A stretch of DNA of 64,000 bases. It comes from Sinorhizobium psoraleae (GTDB taxonomy: Bacteria; Pseudomonadota; Alphaproteobacteria; Rhizobiales; Rhizobiaceae). Position numbers and translations under genes: made by a program. Where the stretch lies: contig NZ_JABEKV010000001.1 of NCBI RefSeq assembly GCF_013283645.1, positions 1,418,577 through 1,482,576 on the forward strand, in the 5' to 3' direction. Below, piece by piece: positions 1-9,074 of this stretch. Every line of letters begins with the position of its first letter. Positions within the stretch are counted from its first letter, which is position 1. Under the pieces are notes generated by a model. It saw nothing but the letters and a program-made list of their open reading frames with translations. It did no database searches and had not been told where the DNA came from.

Positions 1-502
1 GTCCGACGCGGCGATGCCGGCTGTCAGCGAAGTCTACGAGGTGCCGGGAAACAGGGCGATGTCGGCAGCAGAACGGGAGGCGCGGGTCAATGAGATCTAC
101 CGACCGTTCCACGACGCGATATTGCGGTTCGTTTCCGACCGCAAGGCGGCCGGGCGGCACCCGGTCCTTGTTACCATGCACAGTTTCACGCCGGTCTATT
201 TCGGCAAGCCGCGCACTGTCGAAATCGGCATCCTGCACGATGCCGACAGCCGGCTCGCGGACCGCATGCTGGCGATCGCGACGGATGGAGAGGTCGCCTA
301 CGACATACGCCGGAACGAACCCTATGGGCCGGCCGACGGCGTAACGCACAGCCTGGTGGAATACGGCGTGCGAAACGGACTGCCGAACGTGATGATCGAG
401 ATCAGAAACGATCTCATCCGGGACGAGGTCAGCCAAAGGGTCATGGCTGACTATCTGGAGGGGCTGCTCGTGAAGAGCATGGCCGCCCTTCCGGCACGAT
501 AA
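1..502 (+). CDS. N-formylglutamate amidohydrolase-like protein, 5' end outside window
   Basis: The reading frame is open from the first bases of the window, so only the C-terminal part (about 166 residues) of a protein normally near 260 residues is present. An in-frame ATG at 14 is internal, not the start. The segments VLVTMHSFTPVYFG and VEIGILHDADSRLAD match the N-formylglutamate amidohydrolase family, which hydrolyses N-acyl or N-formyl glutamate and related amides with a metal-dependent fold. It is followed by a permease and a gamma-glutamyl-ligase-like gene in the same direction, so it may cleave a gamma-glutamyl or acyl-amide intermediate of that pathway. Family is fairly sure; the substrate is not known from sequence. 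Confidence 0.8.
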   Translation, partial: SDAAMPAVSEVYEVPGNRAMSAAEREARVNEIYRPFHDAILRFVSDRKAAGRHPVLVTMHSFTPVYFGKPRTVEIGILHDADSRLADRMLAIATDGEVAYDIRRNEPYGPADGVTHSLVEYGVRNGLPNVMIEIRNDLIRDEVSQRVMADYLEGLLVKSMAALPAR

Positions 503-516
503 AAAGACCCTGGGGA

Positions 517-555
517 GCGGCAAAGCCGCGGTCCCGTTCCGGAGACCGGAGCGGG
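517..555 (+). other. Intercistronic tandem hairpins
   Basis: Two small inverted repeats lie between the amidohydrolase and the permease. One is GCGGC-aaa-GCCGC at 517-529. The other is a 10-bp stem at 533-542 pairing with 546-555 (one G-T pair) around a 3-nt loop. No T-run follows, so they look more like an mRNA stability or attenuation element than a terminator. Confidence 0.4.
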
Positions 556-612
556 TGTGATGGGGCCTCCTGCAATAGCGCGCGAGGTCAAGGAGAAAAC
601 AGGGGAAAGAAG

Positions 613-2160
613 ATGTCAGACTACACCGATATCGATAAGAAGCAGGACCTGCAGGTCTTGCATTCGATGGGCTACGCCCAGGAACTCGAGCGGCGCATGA
701 GCCAGTTCTCGAACTTCGCCGTGTCATTCTCGATCATTTGCATTCTGTCTGGCGGCATCAACTCGCTGGCGCAGGCGACATCCGGTGCGGGTGGCGCGGC
801 GATCGGCATCGGGTGGCCGCTCGGATGCTTCATCTCGCTGGTCTTCGCCGTCGCCATGGCGCAGATCGGCTCGGCCTATCCGACCGCCGGCGGCCTCTAT
901 CACTGGGGCTCGATCCTCGGCAACCGCTTCACCGGCTGGTTGACGGCCTGGTTCAATCTCCTTGGCCTGGTGACGGTCCTCGGCGCCATCAACGTCGGCA
1001 CCTACTACTTCTTCATGGGGTCGTTCGGCGCACCTTATTTCGGTCTGGAAGACACGACGACCACTCGCATCGTCTTCCTGGCGATCATTACCGGCGCGCA
1101 GGCGCTGGTGAACCATATGGGTATCGGATTGACGGCGAAGCTTACCGACTTTTCCGGCTACCTGATCTTCGCGACATCGATCCTGCTTGCCATCGTTTGC
1201 CTTGCTGCTGCCGACAGCTACGAGATCGGCAGGCTCTTCACCTTCTCCAACTATTCGGGCGAAACGGGCGGCAACGTCTGGCCGCAGACATCCGGAACCT
1301 GGGTCTTCCTGCTCGGCCTCCTGCTGCCGATCTATACGATCACTGGCTACGACGCTTCGGCGCACACGTCGGAGGAAACGGTCAAGGCCGCGCATTCCGT
1401 GCCGCGCGGCATGGTTTCGTCGGTCCTCTGGTCGGCGCTTTTCGGCTACATCATGCTGTGCTCCTTCGTCCTGATGATCCCGAACATGGACGAGGCAGCA
1501 AAGCAGGGCTGGAACGTGTTCTTCTGGGCGATGGACGCGCAGGTGAACCCTGTCATCAAGGACATTCTCTATCTCGCTATCTTCGTCAGCCAGTGGCTGT
1601 GCGGTCTTGCGACGGTGACCTCGGTCTCGCGTATGATCTTCGCCTTCTCGCGTGACGGCGGCCTTCCGGCCTCAAAGGCGCTTGCCAAGGTCAGCCCGAA
1701 CTATCGTACGCCGGTAGCGGCGATCTGGACCGGGTCGATCCTCGCGGTGCTCTTCGTCTGGGGCTCGTCGCTGGTCTCGATCGGCGATACGCCGGTCTAC
1801 ACCATCGTCGTCTCGTGCACGGTCATCTTCCTGTTCTTCTCCTTCGCGATCCCGATCACGCTCGGCTTTTTCGCCTGGGGCACTTCGAAGTGGGACAAGA
1901 TGGGGCCATGGAACCTCGGCGAGGGTACATTCAAGCTCTTTGCCATCCTGTCGCTCATCGCGATGGTGCTGATCTTCGTGCTCGGCATCCAGCCGCCGAA
2001 CGATTGGGCGCTCTACATCACCGTCGGCTTCCTGATCGTGACCGGCATCGTCTGGTTCGGTTTCGAGAGCCGCCGGTTCCGTGGCCCGCCGATCGGCGAG
2101 GAAGTTGCGCGCCGCCAGGCCGAAATCGTCGCTGCCGAAAAGGCTGTCGGCGAAGCTTGA
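613..2160 (+). CDS. APC-superfamily amino acid/amine permease
   Basis: A 515-residue integral membrane protein with about 12 hydrophobic segments. The N-terminal region (ELERRMSQFSNFAVSFSIICILSGG, near residues 20-45) followed by YPTAGGLYHWGS is typical of the amino acid/choline transporter branch of the APC superfamily, which includes fungal choline/ethanolamine and GABA permeases. It imports an amine or amino acid across the inner membrane. A purine-rich ribosome site (GGGGAAAGAAG) sits just before the ATG. It lies between an amidohydrolase and a glutamine-synthetase-like gene, so its cargo is probably the substrate of the following enzymes. Family secure; cargo inferred only. Confidence 0.88.
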   Translation: MSDYTDIDKKQDLQVLHSMGYAQELERRMSQFSNFAVSFSIICILSGGINSLAQATSGAGGAAIGIGWPLGCFISLVFAVAMAQIGSAYPTAGGLYHWGSILGNRFTGWLTAWFNLLGLVTVLGAINVGTYYFFMGSFGAPYFGLEDTTTTRIVFLAIITGAQALVNHMGIGLTAKLTDFSGYLIFATSILLAIVCLAAADSYEIGRLFTFSNYSGETGGNVWPQTSGTWVFLLGLLLPIYTITGYDASAHTSEETVKAAHSVPRGMVSSVLWSALFGYIMLCSFVLMIPNMDEAAKQGWNVFFWAMDAQVNPVIKDILYLAIFVSQWLCGLATVTSVSRMIFAFSRDGGLPASKALAKVSPNYRTPVAAIWTGSILAVLFVWGSSLVSIGDTPVYTIVVSCTVIFLFFSFAIPITLGFFAWGTSKWDKMGPWNLGEGTFKLFAILSLIAMVLIFVLGIQPPNDWALYITVGFLIVTGIVWFGFESRRFRGPPIGEEVARRQAEIVAAEKAVGEA

Positions 2161-2253
2161 CCAACAACAAGAGGGCGGGGCCGCGGCTGCGGCTTCCGCC
2201 TCATTATTTTGCGGCCATGGGAACGGCCGCACCGAACATGGGATGACACTTTC

Positions 2254-3618
2254 ATGAGCTATTCGTTCGAGGAACTGAAAGAGGATGTGGCCGCCGGCCG
2301 CATCGATACCGTGCTCGCCTGCCAGGTGGACATGCAGGGACGTTTGATGGGCAAGCGCTTCCATGCGGAATATTTCGTCGACAGCGCATGGAAGGAAACG
2401 CATAGCTGCAACTATCTGCTTGCGACCGACATGGAGATGGAAACGGTCTCCGGCTACAAGGCGACAAGCTGGGAGAAGGGCTACGGCGACTATACGATGA
2501 AGCCGGACCTTGCGACGCTCCGGCGCATCCCGTGGCTGGAAGGCACGGCGCTGGTCATCTGCGACGTGCTCGATCACCACACGCACGAAGAGGTGCCGCA
2601 TTCACCCCGGGCCATCCTCAAGAAGCAGATTGCACGCCTCGAGGCGATGGGCCTCAAGGCCTTCATGGCAAGCGAGCTCGAATTCTTTCTCTTCGACCAG
2701 TCCTATGACGACGCACGCCAGTCCGGCTATCGCGACCTGCAGCTCGCCAGCGGCTACAACGAGGATTACCACATCTTCCAGACGACGAAGGAAGAGGATG
2801 TGATGCGGGCGATCCGCAACGGCCTTCAGGGCGCCGAGATCCCGGTCGAGAATTCCAAGGGTGAGGCTTCTGCCGGTCAGGAAGAAATCAACGTCCGTTA
2901 CGCCGATGCGCTGACCATGGCCGACCGCCATGCGATCATCAAGAACGGCTGCAAGGAAATCGCCTGGCAGCGCGGCAAGGCCATCACTTTCCTCGCTAAG
3001 TGGAACTATTCGGCTGCCGGCTCTTCCTCGCATATCCATCAGTCGCTCTGGAGTGCCGATGGCGAGACGCCGCTCTTCTTCGACAAGAGCGCGCGTTACG
3101 GCATGTCCGAGCTGATGCGGCATTACGTGGCCGGTCTTCTGACCCATGCGAGCGAGATCACCTATTTCCTCGCGCCTTACATCAACTCCTACAAGCGTTT
3201 CATGGCCGGTACCTTCGCGCCGACCAAGGCGATCTGGAGCAAGGACAACCGCACCGCCGGCTATCGCCTTTGCGGCGAAGACACCAAGGCGATCCGCATC
3301 GAATGCCGCGTCGGGGGTTCCGACCTCAACCCGTATCTTGCCTTTGCCGCTTTGATCGCGGCGGGGATATCCGGTATCGAAGGCAAGATGGAACTCGAAG
3401 CGCCCTTCGTCGGCGATGCCTATCACGGCAAGGACATACGCGAGATCCCGCACACGCTGAGGGACGCGACCGAGGCATTGACCGGCTCGAAAATGCTGCG
3501 CGCCGCCTTCGGCGACGATGTGATCGACCATTACACCCGCGCGGCGCGGTGGGAGCAGGAGGAATATGACCGGCGCGTCACCGACTGGGAGGTCGCGCGC
3601 GGTTTCGAACGGGCATAA
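2254..3618 (+). CDS. Glutamine-synthetase-family gamma-glutamyl amine ligase
   Basis: A 454-residue protein of the glutamine synthetase type I fold. It starts MSYSFEEL; an in-frame ATG at 2209 would add 15 residues not typical of the family. Visible signatures are VDMQGRLMGKRF (about 26-36), the ATP/metal motif ELEFFLF (141-147), a GSSSHIHQS stretch around residue 260 that matches the catalytic histidine loop, and NRTAGYR...RIECRVGGSDLNPYLA for the ATP site near the C terminus. The divergence from housekeeping GlnA and the neighbours (permease, aldehyde and alcohol dehydrogenases, amidohydrolase) fit a PuuA/IpuC-type enzyme that glutamylates an amine with ATP. The exact amine cannot be read from the sequence. 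Confidence 0.85.
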   Translation: MSYSFEELKEDVAAGRIDTVLACQVDMQGRLMGKRFHAEYFVDSAWKETHSCNYLLATDMEMETVSGYKATSWEKGYGDYTMKPDLATLRRIPWLEGTALVICDVLDHHTHEEVPHSPRAILKKQIARLEAMGLKAFMASELEFFLFDQSYDDARQSGYRDLQLASGYNEDYHIFQTTKEEDVMRAIRNGLQGAEIPVENSKGEASAGQEEINVRYADALTMADRHAIIKNGCKEIAWQRGKAITFLAKWNYSAAGSSSHIHQSLWSADGETPLFFDKSARYGMSELMRHYVAGLLTHASEITYFLAPYINSYKRFMAGTFAPTKAIWSKDNRTAGYRLCGEDTKAIRIECRVGGSDLNPYLAFAALIAAGISGIEGKMELEAPFVGDAYHGKDIREIPHTLRDATEALTGSKMLRAAFGDDVIDHYTRAARWEQEEYDRRVTDWEVARGFERA

Positions 3619-3621
3619 GAA

Positions 3622-3760
3622 GTTCCCCTCCTCACGGGCGAGGGCTTCCCGTCGGCAGCCTCCTCACTCAATCTGGGCTGTTGCCAGTTGCGGGGGGCTG
3701 AACTGGCGCCGGGCGGTGACGCCAGCGAGCCCCTTCCTCTTGTGGGGAGGGGACAGTCAA
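3622..3760 (+). repeat. Interspersed repeat with inverted CCCCTCC ends
   Basis: This is the gap between the ligase and aldehyde dehydrogenase genes. It begins TTCCCCTCCTCACGGGCGAG and ends with CCTCTTGTGGGGAGGGGA, so the ends are inverted copies of a C-rich/G-rich motif. The core contains GGCTGTTGCCAGTTG and a GGCGCCgggcggtGACGCC stretch. I recognise this pattern as a common intergenic element of rhizobial chromosomes, but only one copy is in this window. Confidence 0.6.
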
Positions 3761-3776
3761 TTGAAATGAAAACAGG

Positions 3777-5171
3777 ATGACGATCATGACGATGATCAAA
3801 TGCATTTCCCCGGTAAACGGCGAGGTCTACGCCGAACGTCCCGCGATGCCGCTGGAGCTTGCCAAGCAGGCGGTGGCGCACGCGCGTCTGGCGCAGAAGA
3901 ACTGGGCGAGGCGCCCCATCGAAGAGCGGGTCAAGCTGGTGCTCGCCGGCGTTGCGCGACTCAACGAGATGGTCGACGAGGTGGTGCCCGAGCTTGCCTG
4001 GCAGATGGGCCGGCCGGTGCGCTACGGCGGCGAGTTCAAGGGCTTCAACGAGCGTTCGAACTATGTCGCCTCCATCGCCGCCGATGCGCTGAAGCCGATT
4101 ATCGTCGAAGAGAGCGATCGCTTCGAGCGGCGCATTGAGCGCGAGCCGCATGGTGTCGTCTTCGTCATTGCGCCGTGGAACTACCCTTACATGACGGCGA
4201 TCAACACGGTCGCCCCGGCCTTGATGGCCGGCAACACGGTCATCATCAAGCACGCGAGCCAGACGATCCTCGTTGGCGAGCGCATGGTGCGCGCGTTCAT
4301 AGAAGCGGGCGTGCCGGCTGATGTGTTCCAGAACCTTTTCCTGGATCACGACACGACGGCGGCGCTGATCGCTGCGAAGAGCTTCGATTTCATCAATTTC
4401 ACCGGCTCTGTAGAAGGCGGGCGCTCGATCGAGCGTGCAGCGGCCGGCACCTTTACCGGGCTCGGCCTCGAGCTCGGCGGCAAGGACCCCGGCTATGTGA
4501 TGGAGGATGCCGATCTCGACGCCGCCGTCGATACGCTGATGGACGGCGCGACCTACAATTCCGGCCAGTGCTGCTGCGGCATCGAGCGCATCTATGTGCA
4601 TGAATCGCTCTACGATGCCTTCGTCGAAAAATCGGTCGCCTGGGTTTCCAACTACAAGCTCGGCAACCCGCTCGATCCGGAGACGACGCTCGGACCCATG
4701 GCCAACAAGCGCTTCGCCGCCACGGTTCGCCAGCAGGTCGCCGATGCCGTTTCGAAGGGCGCCAAGGCGCTGATCGATCCCAAGCTCTTCCCGCAGGATG
4801 ACGGCGGTGCCTATCTCGCGCCGCAGGTCCTCGTCGACGTCGATCATTCGATGGAGTTCATGCGGGAGGAAACCTTCGGGCCAGCGGTCGGCATTATGAA
4901 GGTGAAGAATGACGCCGAGGCCATCGAGCTGATGAACGATTGCCAGTATGGCCTGACGGTTTCGCTCTGGACGAACGATGCGGACCGCGCGTCGCGCATC
5001 GGCCGCGACCTTGAAACCGGCACCGTCTTCATGAACCGCGCGGATTATCTCGACCCGGCGCTCTGCTGGACGGGTGTCAAGGAAACGGGCCGTGGCGGCT
5101 CGCTTTCGATCCTCGGCTTCCACAATCTCACTCGTCCGAAATCCTATCATCTGAAGAAAGTAACCGCATGA
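3777..5171 (+). CDS. NAD(P)-dependent aldehyde dehydrogenase
   Basis: A 464-residue aldehyde dehydrogenase that oxidises an aldehyde to its acid with NAD(P)+. Seen are the substrate/cofactor loop APWNYPY (132-138), the cofactor loop FTGSVEGG (208-215), the general-base glutamate E232 in LELGGK and the nucleophile region NSGQCCCG (C266 by alignment to GQxC; C265 and C267 flank it). Start is uncertain: ATGs at 3777, 3786 and 3792 are all in frame and no ideal ribosome site decides. Its end overlaps the next gene by 4 nt (ATGA), so the two dehydrogenases are translationally coupled. It probably acts after the alcohol dehydrogenase on the same intermediate. Confidence 0.9.
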   Translation: MTIMTMIKCISPVNGEVYAERPAMPLELAKQAVAHARLAQKNWARRPIEERVKLVLAGVARLNEMVDEVVPELAWQMGRPVRYGGEFKGFNERSNYVASIAADALKPIIVEESDRFERRIEREPHGVVFVIAPWNYPYMTAINTVAPALMAGNTVIIKHASQTILVGERMVRAFIEAGVPADVFQNLFLDHDTTAALIAAKSFDFINFTGSVEGGRSIERAAAGTFTGLGLELGGKDPGYVMEDADLDAAVDTLMDGATYNSGQCCCGIERIYVHESLYDAFVEKSVAWVSNYKLGNPLDPETTLGPMANKRFAATVRQQVADAVSKGAKALIDPKLFPQDDGGAYLAPQVLVDVDHSMEFMREETFGPAVGIMKVKNDAEAIELMNDCQYGLTVSLWTNDADRASRIGRDLETGTVFMNRADYLDPALCWTGVKETGRGGSLSILGFHNLTRPKSYHLKKVTA

Positions 5172-6313
5172 CGATCACCGCCAACTGGAGCTATCCGACC
5201 GCCGTCAAGTTCGGCGCCGGCCGAGTCAAGGAGCTTGCCGACCATTGCAGGGCTCTCGGCATGAGGAAGCCGCTGCTCGTGACCGATCGTGGCCTTGCGC
5301 CGATGGCGATCACGCAGAATGCGCTCGATATCCTGGAAGCAGGCGGCCTTGGCCGCGCCATCTTCGCCGATGTCGATCCGAACCCGAACGACAAGAACCT
5401 GGATGCAGGCGTGAAGGCGTTCAAAGACGGCGGCCATGACGGTGTCGTCGCCTTCGGCGGCGGTTCCGGTCTCGATCTCGGCAAGTGCGTCGCCTTCATG
5501 GTCGGCCAGACGCGGCCGGTCTGGGACTTCGAGGATATCGGCGACTGGTGGACACGCGCGAGCGTCGAAGGCATCGCACCGATCGTTGCGGTGCCGACGA
5601 CCGCCGGCACCGGTTCTGAGGTCGGTCGCGCCAGCGTCATCACCAATTCGGCAAGTCATGTAAAGAAGGTGATCTTCCACCCGAAGTTCCTGCCGGGGGT
5701 AACGATCTGCGATCCGGAGCTGACGGTCGGCATGCCGAAGGTCATCACCGCCGGCACCGGCATGGATGCCTTCGCCCATTGCCTGGAGGCCTATTCCTCG
5801 CCCTTCTATCATCCGATGTCGGCGGGCATTGCGCTCGAGGGCATGCGGCTCGTCAAGGAATATTTGCCGCGCGCCTACAAGGACGGCACGGATATCGAAG
5901 CGCGCGCGAACATGATGAGTGCCGCGGCGATGGGTGCTGTGGCATTCCAGAAGGGGCTCGGCGCAATCCATTCGCTCTCCCACCCGGTCGGCGCGATCTA
6001 CAACACCCATCACGGCATGACCAATGCTGTGGTGATGCCGCCGGTGCTGCGCTTCAACCGCCCGGCGATCGAAGACAAGATCGCGCGTGCTGCGGCCTAT
6101 CTCGGCATCGCCGGAGGTTTCGACGGATTTTATGACTACGTCTTGAAGTTGCGTGAAGCGCTCGGCGTGCCGGACAGGCTTTCCGCACTCGGGGTCGGCA
6201 CCGATCGCATCGATGAAATGTCGGAAATGGCGATCGTCGACCCCACCGCCGGCGGCAACCCGGTGGAGCTGACGCTCGACGCGGCGAAGAAGCTCTTCAG
6301 AGAGTGCATCTGA
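5168..6313 (+). CDS. Iron-containing (group III) alcohol dehydrogenase
   Basis: A 381-residue protein of the iron-dependent alcohol dehydrogenase family. It has the NAD-binding GGGSGLDLGK near residues 97-106, VPTTAGTGSEV, and the metal-ligand region GTGMDAFAHCLEAY (Asp and His ligands near 198-202) followed by the histidine-rich IHSLSHPVGAIYNTHHG near 265-283. The ATG overlaps the stop of the aldehyde dehydrogenase by 4 nt. Together they could oxidise an alcohol group to a carboxylate in two steps, which fits a glutamylated amino-alcohol such as ethanolamine or alaninol. This substrate is inferred from context. A rho-independent terminator follows within 25 nt. Confidence 0.9.
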   Translation: MTITANWSYPTAVKFGAGRVKELADHCRALGMRKPLLVTDRGLAPMAITQNALDILEAGGLGRAIFADVDPNPNDKNLDAGVKAFKDGGHDGVVAFGGGSGLDLGKCVAFMVGQTRPVWDFEDIGDWWTRASVEGIAPIVAVPTTAGTGSEVGRASVITNSASHVKKVIFHPKFLPGVTICDPELTVGMPKVITAGTGMDAFAHCLEAYSSPFYHPMSAGIALEGMRLVKEYLPRAYKDGTDIEARANMMSAAAMGAVAFQKGLGAIHSLSHPVGAIYNTHHGMTNAVVMPPVLRFNRPAIEDKIARAAAYLGIAGGFDGFYDYVLKLREALGVPDRLSALGVGTDRIDEMSEMAIVDPTAGGNPVELTLDAAKKLFRECI

Positions 6314-6336
6314 GCCGGATCGCGTTAATTTTCTGG

Positions 6337-6370
6337 AGCCCGGAAGACCTTGGTTTTTCGGGCTTTTTCA
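6337..6370 (+). terminator. Rho-independent terminator after the alcohol dehydrogenase
   Basis: Inverted repeat 6337-6349 (AGCCCGGAAGACC) pairs with 6352-6364 (GGTTTTTCGGGCT) at 11 of 13 positions around a 2-nt loop, and a T-run follows directly. It closes the amidohydrolase-to-alcohol-dehydrogenase gene group. Confidence 0.8.
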
Positions 6371-6508
6371 TTGATGTGCGGCGCTGCGGTTAATCTTTGC
6401 CTTCCAAAATTTCCATTTCGTTAACCATGTTCTGAAAGGCTTTGTTAAGGGCGCCGCCTGCTGAAGCATCGGTCGGAGCCTCGAAACAATGACGGAATGA
6501 GGTGGAAG

Positions 6509-7228
6509 ATGGCGGTCATCACATTTGCCAACGCAAAGGGCGGCGCCGGCAAGACGACGGCGGCACTGATCCTGTCGACGGAATTGGCGAGACAGGGCAA
6601 CAGGGTGGTGGTGCTCGACGCGGACCCGCAGCGCTGGATCACGCGCTGGTCGGAAGTCTCCGGCCATGTCGCCAATCTCGAAGTGATCTCGCATATCACG
6701 CCCGCGTCGCTGCCCTGCCACATCCGTGAACTGAAAGACGCGGCTGATTTCATCGTGATCGATCTCGCCGGCGCCAAGGATGCAATCGTCGCGCTGGCAC
6801 TGGGCCTGTCCGATCAGGTGCTGATCCCGGTCCAGGGCTGCGCGATGGACGCGCAAGGGGCGGTTCAGATCCTGGAACTGATCCGCCATATCGAACAAAA
6901 GACAACGGTTCGCATCAGGCATTCGGTCGTGCTCACGCGGGTCAACTCGCTGGTGACCACGCGCGCGCTCCAAGCGATCAAGACGCTGCTTGCTTCGCGC
7001 AACGTTTCGATGCTCGATACTCCGATCGTCGAACGCGCCGCCTATCGCGAGATTTTCGAATGCGGCGGAACGCTGCAGACGATGGATGCGGGCCGCGTCA
7101 GTAATCTCGACAAGGCGCGCGAGAACGCCCTTGCGCTCGCTCAGGAGGTTCTGGCGCTCCTGCCCGTTTCCTATCAGCGGTCCTGGGCTGCGCGGGTGCC
7201 GTCCTGGGCGCGGTTGCGCGCCGCGTAG
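6509..7228 (+). CDS. ParA/VirC1-like P-loop ATPase
   Basis: A 239-residue protein with the deviant Walker A box KGGAGKTT at 10-17, a LDADPQ Walker A' segment near residue 40 and VIDLAG as Walker B. This places it in the ParA/MinD/VirC1 family of ATPases that position DNA or protein cargo. It is alone: no parB-like gene or partition site is visible next to it, so it is not the chromosomal parAB pair. The GAGGTGG ribosome site at 6499-6505 supports the ATG at 6509 over the one at 6497. Closest in size and layout to the stand-alone VirC1-like proteins of rhizobia; the cargo is unknown. Confidence 0.8.
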   Translation: MAVITFANAKGGAGKTTAALILSTELARQGNRVVVLDADPQRWITRWSEVSGHVANLEVISHITPASLPCHIRELKDAADFIVIDLAGAKDAIVALALGLSDQVLIPVQGCAMDAQGAVQILELIRHIEQKTTVRIRHSVVLTRVNSLVTTRALQAIKTLLASRNVSMLDTPIVERAAYREIFECGGTLQTMDAGRVSNLDKARENALALAQEVLALLPVSYQRSWAARVPSWARLRAA

Positions 7229-7272
7229 TCGCTTTGCCGGCCGGCGCATTTGATCCGCCTCGGCTCATCGTC

Positions 7273-7316
7273 ATTCAACCGGAATTGACATTCGTCAGTT
7301 CCGGTTGAATCTTTTG
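7273..7316 (+). terminator. Strong hairpin after the ParA-like gene
   Basis: A 17-bp inverted repeat, 7273-7289 (ATTCAACCGGAATTGAC) with 7294-7310, matches at 16 of 17 positions around a 4-nt loop and is followed by CTTTTGT. It is the likely transcription end of the ParA-like gene. Confidence 0.7.
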
Positions 7317-7320
7317 TCGC

Positions 7321-7524
7321 ACCTGCACCAAATGGCTGGTAAACACCGCTATCAGCCAGATGGACCGGATCACCCAGCAGAATGCGGCAATGGTGGAGCA
7401 GGCGAATGCCTCGTGCCAGGCGCTAACGGCCGAAGCCGAGCAGATTGCGCGACGTCTCCGCGCCTTCAAGACGTCTGGCAGCGGCACGGCGGGCGCGACA
7501 TTCGGCTATCAGGTCGCTGCTTAG
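7321..7524 (+). pseudogene. C-terminal remnant of a methyl-accepting chemotaxis protein
   Basis: Read in frame from 7321, the segment encodes LVNTAISQMDRITQQNAAMV followed by EQANASCQALTAEAEQIARR and LRAFKT, ending at a TAG at 7522-7524. This is the conserved tail of the signalling domain of methyl-accepting chemotaxis proteins (the MDQxTQQNAAMVEQ motif). Nothing upstream in this frame provides the ligand-binding, HAMP or kinase-interaction parts, and a hairpin sits directly before it, so it cannot be a working receptor. It is a decayed leftover, probably from recombination or deletion. Confidence 0.75.
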
Positions 7525-7554
7525 TTACCGCCGGAATGACAGCCACACGCTCCT

Positions 7555-7742
7555 CATCCCTGTGCTCGTCACAGGGAACCAGCCACGGCGCGTCCGCGCC
7601 GTGAATGACCTTGGCTTGTCGAGGGGAGCGGTTGCTGAGGCAACAATGCTGGCCCTCGGAGTGGTACAAAGCGCCAGATGGAGTCTCTCGCACTGCCGAC
7701 GCGGTGCGGCTGGATTCCTGTGACAAGCACAGGAATGACGGG
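7555..7742 (+). repeat. RIME-like mosaic repeat, copy 1
   Basis: About 190 bp bounded by inverted ends: CCTGTGCTCGTCACAGG on the left and CCTGTGACAAGCACAGGAAT on the right, with inner palindromes (CGGCGCGTCCGCGCCG). A second element with the same end motifs lies at 19707-19863. The structure resembles the rhizobium-specific intergenic mosaic elements known from Sinorhizobium. It sits between the chemoreceptor remnant and the FAD oxidoreductase. Confidence 0.7.
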
Positions 7743-7784
7743 GGAGAGAACAACCGGCAGGCAGGAGGTGAAGAGCAGCGGAGC

Positions 7785-9074
7785 TCAGAAGCGCCGGTCG
7801 ACAAAATGCTTCGCCTGCGCGCCGGCGTGATAGAAGGCGGATTTTACCGTCCGCCACGGATCCGGCGTAATCGGTGTTTCAGCAAGCGGAATTGCCGAGG
7901 CATCGCCCATGACGTGGTGGGCGAGCGCTCGTCCGAAGACGGTTCCGGGCGCAATGCCACGGCCGTTGTAGCCGCTCACCGACACGACATTCGGCGCGAG
8001 CACGTGCATGGCGGGCAGGTTGTTGGTCGTCATGCCGATGCGGCCATCCCACCAGTATTCGAAGCGGAAATCGCCGATATTCGGGAAGAGTTTGCGCAGC
8101 GAGCGGGCCGCGAAGGCGCGATGCGTGCCCTCGGCCATGGCATCGAGCCGGCCGATCGAACCGAAGATCATCCGGTTCTGCTGATCCATGCGGAAGGAAG
8201 TCATGACGAGCCCCGTATCCCAGGCGCCCTGACGCTCCGGCAGGATCCGCGCTGCGACCTTTTCGGGCAGCGGATTGGTGGCGAACTGGAAATAGGGGAG
8301 AATCGTCAGTTCCTGGGTATGCGCCTTCCACGGCACGTCGGGAACGAGCGCTCCATAGGCGTTGGTCGCTAGAATGATGTGGCGGGCGGTAAGACTGCCG
8401 TGGCCTGCCTTAAGCCTCCACTGATCGCCCTGGCGCTCGGCGGCAAGGAGAGGGGTGTCGGTGAAGATCTTGGCGCCGGCGGCGAGTGCTGCCCGCGCCA
8501 GCCCTCTTGCGTAGGCAAGCGGCTGGATCGTTCCGGCGCGGCGGTCGAGCAACGCGCCGGCAAAGCCCTCGGCGCCGGAGAGCACGTGGGTTCTGTCAGC
8601 CGAGAGCACTTCGACCGGCGCGCCGCGTTTCTTCCACTGCGCCTCGCGATCCCGGATGTCCTTCAGGCCCTCGGCACCGACGGCCATGTGGAGCGTACCG
8701 TTGCGTACGGCCTCGCATTGCATACCGTGTTTCGCGACGAGATCGTAGACGAGAGACGGACCGTCGCCGAGCTCGTTCAACAACCGGTTTCCGGCCTCAG
8801 TGCCGAGGGTTGCGACGAGATCGTCCGGCTTTACCCACATGCCGGCGTTGACGAGGCCGACATTGCGGCCGGAACCGCCGAAGCCGATCATACGCGCTTC
8901 GACCACGGTTGCTTTCACACCCTTTTCCGCAAGATGCAGCGCGGCGGAGAGGCCGGTGAAACCGCCGCCGATGATTGCCACGTCGGTGCTCAGCTCGCCG
9001 GTAAGCGGACCGGTTTCAGGCGCGGCGGGTGCCGTCGCATGCCAGAGGTTGGGGAGAGCACGCTCCGTTGCCAT
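7785..9074 (-). CDS. FAD-dependent amine/amino-acid oxidoreductase (PuuB/DAO family)
   Basis: A 429-residue flavoprotein. The N-terminal dinucleotide-binding motif VAIIGGGFTGLSAALHLAEKG (33-53) and the GFGGSGRNVGLVNAG segment are typical of the DAO superfamily, close to gamma-glutamylputrescine oxidases. Such enzymes oxidise an amine to an aldehyde or imine with O2. Two upstream in-frame ATGs exist (9083, 9197), but the AAGGA at spacing 8 supports the one at 9074. It lies on the other strand from the glutamylation cassette at 1-6.3 kb, and might supply an oxidation step to that pathway; this is only context. Confidence 0.8.
   Translation of the reverse strand: MATERALPNLWHATAPAAPETGPLTGELSTDVAIIGGGFTGLSAALHLAEKGVKATVVEARMIGFGGSGRNVGLVNAGMWVKPDDLVATLGTEAGNRLLNELGDGPSLVYDLVAKHGMQCEAVRNGTLHMAVGAEGLKDIRDREAQWKKRGAPVEVLSADRTHVLSGAEGFAGALLDRRAGTIQPLAYARGLARAALAAGAKIFTDTPLLAAERQGDQWRLKAGHGSLTARHIILATNAYGALVPDVPWKAHTQELTILPYFQFATNPLPEKVAARILPERQGAWDTGLVMTSFRMDQQNRMIFGSIGRLDAMAEGTHRAFAARSLRKLFPNIGDFRFEYWWDGRIGMTTNNLPAMHVLAPNVVSVSGYNGRGIAPGTVFGRALAHHVMGDASAIPLAETPITPDPWRTVKSAFYHAGAQAKHFVDRRF

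Follow-up and report, generated by a model that had tools for sequence, protein, structure and literature searches.

A predicted gamma-glutamylation operon for ethanolamine catabolism, with an apparently exchangeable transporter gene, in Sinorhizobium psoraleae

The window analyzed here, a stretch of 64,000 nucleotides from contig NZ_JABEKV010000001.1 of Sinorhizobium psoraleae, opens with a five-gene cassette that we read, with a probability of roughly 87%, as an inducible operon of a Sinorhizobium/Ensifer-like bacterium for the catabolism of ethanolamine via gamma-glutamylation. Ethanolamine is a membrane-lipid head group and a common product of membrane-lipid breakdown. In the predicted pathway, it would be taken up through a permease and coupled, with ATP, to the gamma-carboxyl group of glutamate by a glutamine synthetase (GS)-like ligase. 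The alcohol group of the resulting gamma-glutamylethanolamide would be oxidized to the aldehyde by an iron-containing alcohol dehydrogenase (ADH) and the aldehyde to gamma-glutamylglycine by an aldehyde dehydrogenase (ALDH). An FGase-family enzyme would then hydrolyze gamma-glutamylglycine to glutamate and glycine, so that glutamate would be recycled and the nitrogen of ethanolamine would exit in glycine. An RpiR-type regulator probably represses the operon via two TGAA-N8-TTCA palindromes located 42 bp apart, until release by an inducer. Gamma-glutamylation followed by two oxidations and amide hydrolysis had been proposed in a preliminary description of this DNA; this route fits the evidence best.

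The open reading frame (ORF) list and Pfam matches place five genes on the plus strand in the order amidohydrolase, permease, ligase, ALDH and ADH, each far over the respective Pfam cut-off (FGase, AA_permease_2, Gln-synt_C, Aldedh and Fe-ADH):

1..502, + strand: FGase-family gamma-glutamylglycine amidohydrolase-like gene, 3' part (PF05013, 152 bits; whole gene L006:9714-10502, where L006 is the extracted locus of this genome)
613..2160, + strand: APC-superfamily permease, predicted ethanolamine uptake (AA_permease_2, 171 bits; TIGR00907, 199 bits against a cut-off of 598)
2254..3618, + strand: GS-like ligase, predicted gamma-glutamylethanolamide synthetase, ETAGA (PF00120, 341 bits)
3777..5171, + strand: aldehyde dehydrogenase, predicted to convert the aldehyde to gamma-glutamylglycine (PF00171, 404 bits)
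5168..6313, + strand: iron-containing alcohol dehydrogenase, predicted gamma-glutamylethanolamide dehydrogenase (PF00465, 158 bits)
6337..6368, + strand: 12-pair hairpin followed by TTTT, likely intrinsic terminator (fold -22.9 kcal/mol, z -2.24)

The ORF positions and Pfam matches confirm the earlier account of five co-directional genes ending at a terminator. The amidohydrolase gene is truncated by the window edge, its 5' end lying about 290 bases upstream of the window start, and the ligase start was set by choice at the ATG at 2254, the ORF list having a TTG at 2209. The ALDH and ADH genes overlap by 4 bases and the remaining gaps in the cassette measure 110, 93 and 158 bases. The terminator after the ADH gene is credible, if not proven, because positions 6311-6375 form a stable 12-pair hairpin with a UUUU tail (7 of 200 shuffles were equally stable); a simple terminator scan of both strands of positions 1-9000 gave no excess (8 sites versus 7.0 +/- 2.9 in shuffles). 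No sigma-70-type site emerged from a promoter scan of the window's first 9 kb, and the cassette promoter likely lies upstream of the window start.

The ligase is the enzyme most informative about the pathway. Two Protein Data Bank entries, 11zs and 5dm3, match it with scores near 680 bits, every other chain scoring at most 175 bits; it is identical at 295 of 447 positions (66%) to 5dm3, which we take to be the C. salexigens enzyme. Among the matches listed, those of Sinorhizobium terangae USDA4894 and Ensifer sp. IC4062 are the closest named relatives, at 98%. Its residues were compared with those of L090, a protein from this genome that its FDGSS motif marks as GlnA-like, with residue numbers and roles that are assumed to follow Salmonella GlnA. 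In this alignment the ligase retains the metal-ligand residues E129, E131, E212, E220, H269 and E357 and the substrate arginines R321, R344 and R359; R339 is outside the comparison, its intended column having fallen on an adjacent N, and R359 is X in the related locus L052. The GlnA ammonium-site residues are not kept: D50 is a gap, S53 is replaced by T, and flap residue E327 by F. Because the ammonium-site residues are lost while the metal and substrate residues are kept, the ligase fits an amine other than ammonia as its substrate, and an enzyme acting on ammonia only, the outcome on which the preliminary description would have given up its proposal, is unlikely. The three further GS-like proteins of this genome that were aligned have likewise lost D50, S53 and E327.

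The amidohydrolase has a single match in the Protein Data Bank, 2odf (Atu2144), with 142 of 250 positions identical (57%). Its assignment as HutG was rejected (TIGR02017, 19 bits against a cut-off of 278.75). None of the NCBIfam models exceeded its cut-off for the ALDH, among 25 of 44 matches listed, or for the Fe-ADH (0 of 14), so the two dehydrogenases are not assignable by family models.

The gene set is conserved far beyond chance. We compared this locus with the 80 best of at least 593 relatives (596 pattern matches listed); these 80 named loci, the nearest relatives, are from rhizobia and their kin as judged by titles, and with the own locus they make 81. ALDH and ADH genes lie downstream of the ligase in all 81. 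The amidohydrolase and an RpiR-type regulator are near the ligase in 79, the other two loci being cut by contig ends, and the amidohydrolase, a recognized transporter, ALDH and ADH all stand beside the ligase in 78; the three misses comprise two loci cut upstream and one (L075) without a recognized transporter. In evenly drawn genomes, a ligase match at E <= 1e-140 was present in 42 of 385 at class level and 43 of 398 at phylum level, both counts including the own genome. From these searches we drew a wider sample of 77 further loci, 6 with less than 5500 bases upstream and 2 with less than 3500 downstream, of which L136, L137 and L138 repeat L075, L067 and L077 of the nearer sample.

The regulator gene lies just outside the window, divergent from the cassette on the minus strand (L006:8676-9548), and encodes HTH_6 and SIS domains. 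The intergenic region between it and the amidohydrolase gene contains TGAAGAGATCGTTTCA at L006:9633 and TGAAGAATTCTTTTCA at L006:9675, whose start positions differ by 42 bases and which flank a TTGACA box. Of the 78 own and named intergenic regions, 75 contain at least two copies of TGAA-N8-TTC; base shuffles average 0.015. These sequences are related, so that the count overstates their independence. The spacing of the pair is 42 in 70 regions, 41 in 3 and 43 in 2. In the own genome, the pair at the exact spacing of 42, the only spacing searched, occurs in one place. The simplest reading is that the paired sites are a putative RpiR operator serving one operon.

The gene before the ligase varies. 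The position is occupied by a permease of the window type in 67 of the 81 loci, by a tripartite ATP-independent periplasmic (TRAP) transporter in 10 (recognized by DctM and/or the binding protein), by a third type of permease in 3 (L052, L059 and L063), and by no recognized transporter in one. The window-type permeases are 49-96% identical to that of the window, for which the best NCBIfam model is TIGR00907, below its cut-off; the three models listed for it do not include the ethanolamine permease model TIGR00908. By comparison, TIGR00908 is the best model for the third type of permease, which scores 365-374 bits against a cut-off of 381.75. A search with Atu2144 found 17 of 394 genomes of the family at E <= 1e-100, and 7 of these (group g471) were taken up; all seven contain the third type of permease, as seen by tblastn only. 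Their amidohydrolases include those closest to 2odf, 91% and 89% identical in two genomes, from which we infer that g471 is probably Agrobacterium. In locus L009, whose ligase is 97% identical to that of the window, a TRAP set stands in place of the permease, and its binding protein is identical at 231 of 330 positions (70%) to 4uab, presumably the C. salexigens ethanolamine-binding protein. This assignment fits PMC10132767, which names Csal_0678.

The flanks of the transporter genes indicate exchange in place. The own locus, with the permease, and L009, with the TRAP set, are 90% alike until 30 bases beyond the amidohydrolase gene, and the match resumes, at 94%, 12 bases into the ligase gene; L044 and L056 display the same pattern at 80-86%. 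On trees computed with FastTree, without bootstrap, from loci with an upstream amidohydrolase only, the transporter label requires a parsimony minimum of at least 14 changes over 113 loci (shuffled mean 32.6) and at least 11 over 79 own and named rows; L096 and L171, with no open ALDH and ADH, were left out. For the permease and TRAP labels alike, well-supported branches force at least 10 changes. In the wider sample, the upstream position holds a window-type permease in 11 loci, TRAP in 24 and a TRAP binding protein only in one, the third type in 4, and no recognized transporter in 37, among which one locus has a permease and another a weak DctM match downstream. On balance we favor an exchangeable slot, in which TRAP transporters, carriers resembling the ethanolamine permease and TIGR00907-type permeases swap in place while the enzymes stay, as does the operator in the nearest relatives. 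Since three unlike transporters share the slot and two of them are tied to ethanolamine, the window permease is probably an ethanolamine carrier too. Two further arrangements were observed: in L075 (8029-10356) the slot is empty, with about 210 bases between the amidohydrolase and ligase genes and no permease or TRAP gene recognized nearby, and L150 (5615-8900, ligase orientation) carries a tandem pair of window-type permeases that share 49% and 75% identity with the window's own.

Several points weigh against the reading as an ethanolamine operon. The argument from the slot presupposes that all slot types carry the same substrate, and the slot permeases resembling TIGR00908 fall 8-17 bits under the model cut-off. 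In the wider sample, ADH is near the ligase in 68 of the 77 loci, ALDH in 52, the amidohydrolase in 36 and RpiR in 35, and the full gene set is nearby in 33; it follows that the ligase and ADH widely travel together, while the complete operon is commoner in nearer kin. The co-occurrence in other genomes that the preliminary description had suggested checking is thus found in 78 of the 81 nearest and 33 of the 77 wider loci. Paired operator-like sites are present in 8 of 35 intergenic regions of the wider sample. The literature itself diverges, the C. salexigens pathway being 'demonstrated' according to PMC10132767 (which cites its ref. 32 for the functioning of closely related genes in C. salexigens and A. 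tumefaciens C58) and 'predicted in silico' according to PMC6529630. Finally, the own genome also encodes a homologue of ethanolamine ammonia-lyase, so a second ethanolamine route may exist. This homologue is a single frame of 784 residues on contig C56 (L175:7430-9784) that matches both EutB and EutC; its start, TRRDLLVMAGA, is twin-arginine-like by eye, and it lies beside genes for a GH94 enzyme and a phosphoketolase. A B12 enzyme that is fused and perhaps exported would be unusual, and the frame may come from assembly contamination (4.03%).

Ethanolamine nevertheless is the better supported putative substrate when compared with alaninol or putrescine. It is improbable that the same chemistry serves mainly a different small amino alcohol, for example L-alaninol (2-amino-1-propanol), which would be converted via gamma-glutamylalanine to alanine, or that the system is a broad one. 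The sequence does not separate ethanolamine from its methyl homologue, and 4xf5, a further entry of the 4uab sequence, is reportedly a complex with 2-amino-1-propanol. However, published operons of the same gene order point to ethanolamine (PMC10132767), and one of the alternative slot permeases scores best with the ethanolamine permease model. Of the amino alcohols suggested earlier, ethanolamine is therefore likely, on the strength of these operons and the TIGR00908-like slot permease, and alaninol is less supported.

A route for putrescine or another diamine resembling the Puu pathway is very unlikely. That pathway follows the same logic of ligase, ALDH and hydrolase, but with an amine oxidase rather than an alcohol dehydrogenase and a hydrolase of another family. 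The GS-like ligase, ALDH and amide hydrolase of the cassette thus resemble Puu in outline; yet the cassette contains an alcohol dehydrogenase and no amine oxidase, as the preliminary description had rightly stressed, and the ligase scores 200 bits with the gamma-glutamylputrescine synthetase model NF045547, far below its cut-off of 650, on which grounds we rejected this reading. Moreover, two other GS-like genes of the genome adjoin apparent FAD oxidases (by eye), the layout expected for Puu. Least probable of all, and likewise rejected, is an ordinary ammonia-assimilating glutamine synthetase with unrelated neighbors: the catalytic domain is indeed that of GS, but the ammonium-site residues are lost, the type I and type III GS models give 260 bits (cut-off 429) and 242 bits (cut-off 470), a GlnA-like protein with the FDGSS motif is encoded elsewhere in the genome, and the operon is conserved.

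Two features of the surroundings were also recorded. A ParA-like ATPase is encoded downstream of the terminator (window:6497-7228), and a relative of it lies within 1.7 kb downstream of ADH in 63 of the 81 own and named loci. Between the ligase and ALDH genes, 17 of these loci contain a small helix-turn-helix (HTH) protein and a PIN-domain protein, resembling a toxin-antitoxin pair (for example, L042:10404-10889, L049:10909-11331 and L176:6969-7824), with the HTH match 45-87 bases after the ligase match. One of the 7 g471 loci has the pair as well, and 4 of the 77 loci of the wider sample have PIN, alone or together with HTH; the presence of the pair requires at least 8 changes on an 81-row tree. 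The window cassette lacks the pair, and window positions 3600-3800, around the ligase-ALDH gap, contain no repeat of 12 bases or more.

The cassette is a well-conserved representative of an ethanolamine pathway already in the literature, and the pathway itself is not new. The suggestion of a possibly undescribed combination with this amidohydrolase was wrong: that combination is in PMC10132767, and the steps are also in PMC6529630. According to PMC10132767, the operon MED193_10021-10056 of Phaeobacter sp. MED193 encodes RpiR, a gamma-glutamylglycine amidohydrolase (GGAH), the TRAP transporter EtoVWX, an ethanolamine gamma-glutamylase (ETAGA), and an aldehyde and a gamma-glutamylethanolamide dehydrogenase (GAADDH and GETADH), for ethanolamine; five of these proteins were raised on phosphorylethanolamine, EtoX binds ethanolamine at 7.9 uM, and the Phaeobacter pathway is called predicted (Fig. 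5). Judged by locus tags, not sequences, the gene order there is the same as here apart from the transporter, TRAP EtoVWX in Phaeobacter versus a single APC permease in the window. For Streptomyces coelicolor GlnA4, PMC6529630 proposes the same gamma-glutamylethanolamide route with glycine and glutamate as end products, the last step by a member of the formylglutamate amidohydrolase family; the steps after the ligase are proposed, and the legend to Fig. 2 has a short-chain dehydrogenase and a glutamine amidotransferase. PMC9397018 repeats the same pathway steps.

With the operons of the Phaeobacter, C. salexigens and Agrobacterium type the cassette shares a homologous ligase, ALDH and ADH downstream, a non-HutG FGase-family enzyme and RpiR upstream; TRAP EtoVWX, a feature of the Phaeobacter and C. 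salexigens form only, is absent, the slot being occupied by the APC permease. The pathway of C. salexigens and A. tumefaciens C58 is represented by the homologous ligase (5dm3, with the organism as presumed above) and amidohydrolase (2odf). C. salexigens differs in having a binding protein of the TRAP type, Csal_0678 (PMC10132767), whereas the window has a permease; the seven g471 genomes, of which two encode amidohydrolases 89-91% identical to 2odf, have the TIGR00908-like permease rather than the window type. In a literature search mostly at title level we found no published account of transporter exchange in this operon and, among the publication titles found, none on a rhizobial cassette with a permease, so it is the transporter form and the evidence of its repeated exchange that we did not find described. 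The cassette thus indicates that rhizobia probably carry a route published for other Proteobacteria and suggests a substrate for an uncharacterized group of permeases. If the predictions are true, the window permease is an unrecognized ethanolamine uptake carrier, the slot type may mirror the ethanolamine supply of each niche, and three transporter types before one pathway provide a natural comparison.

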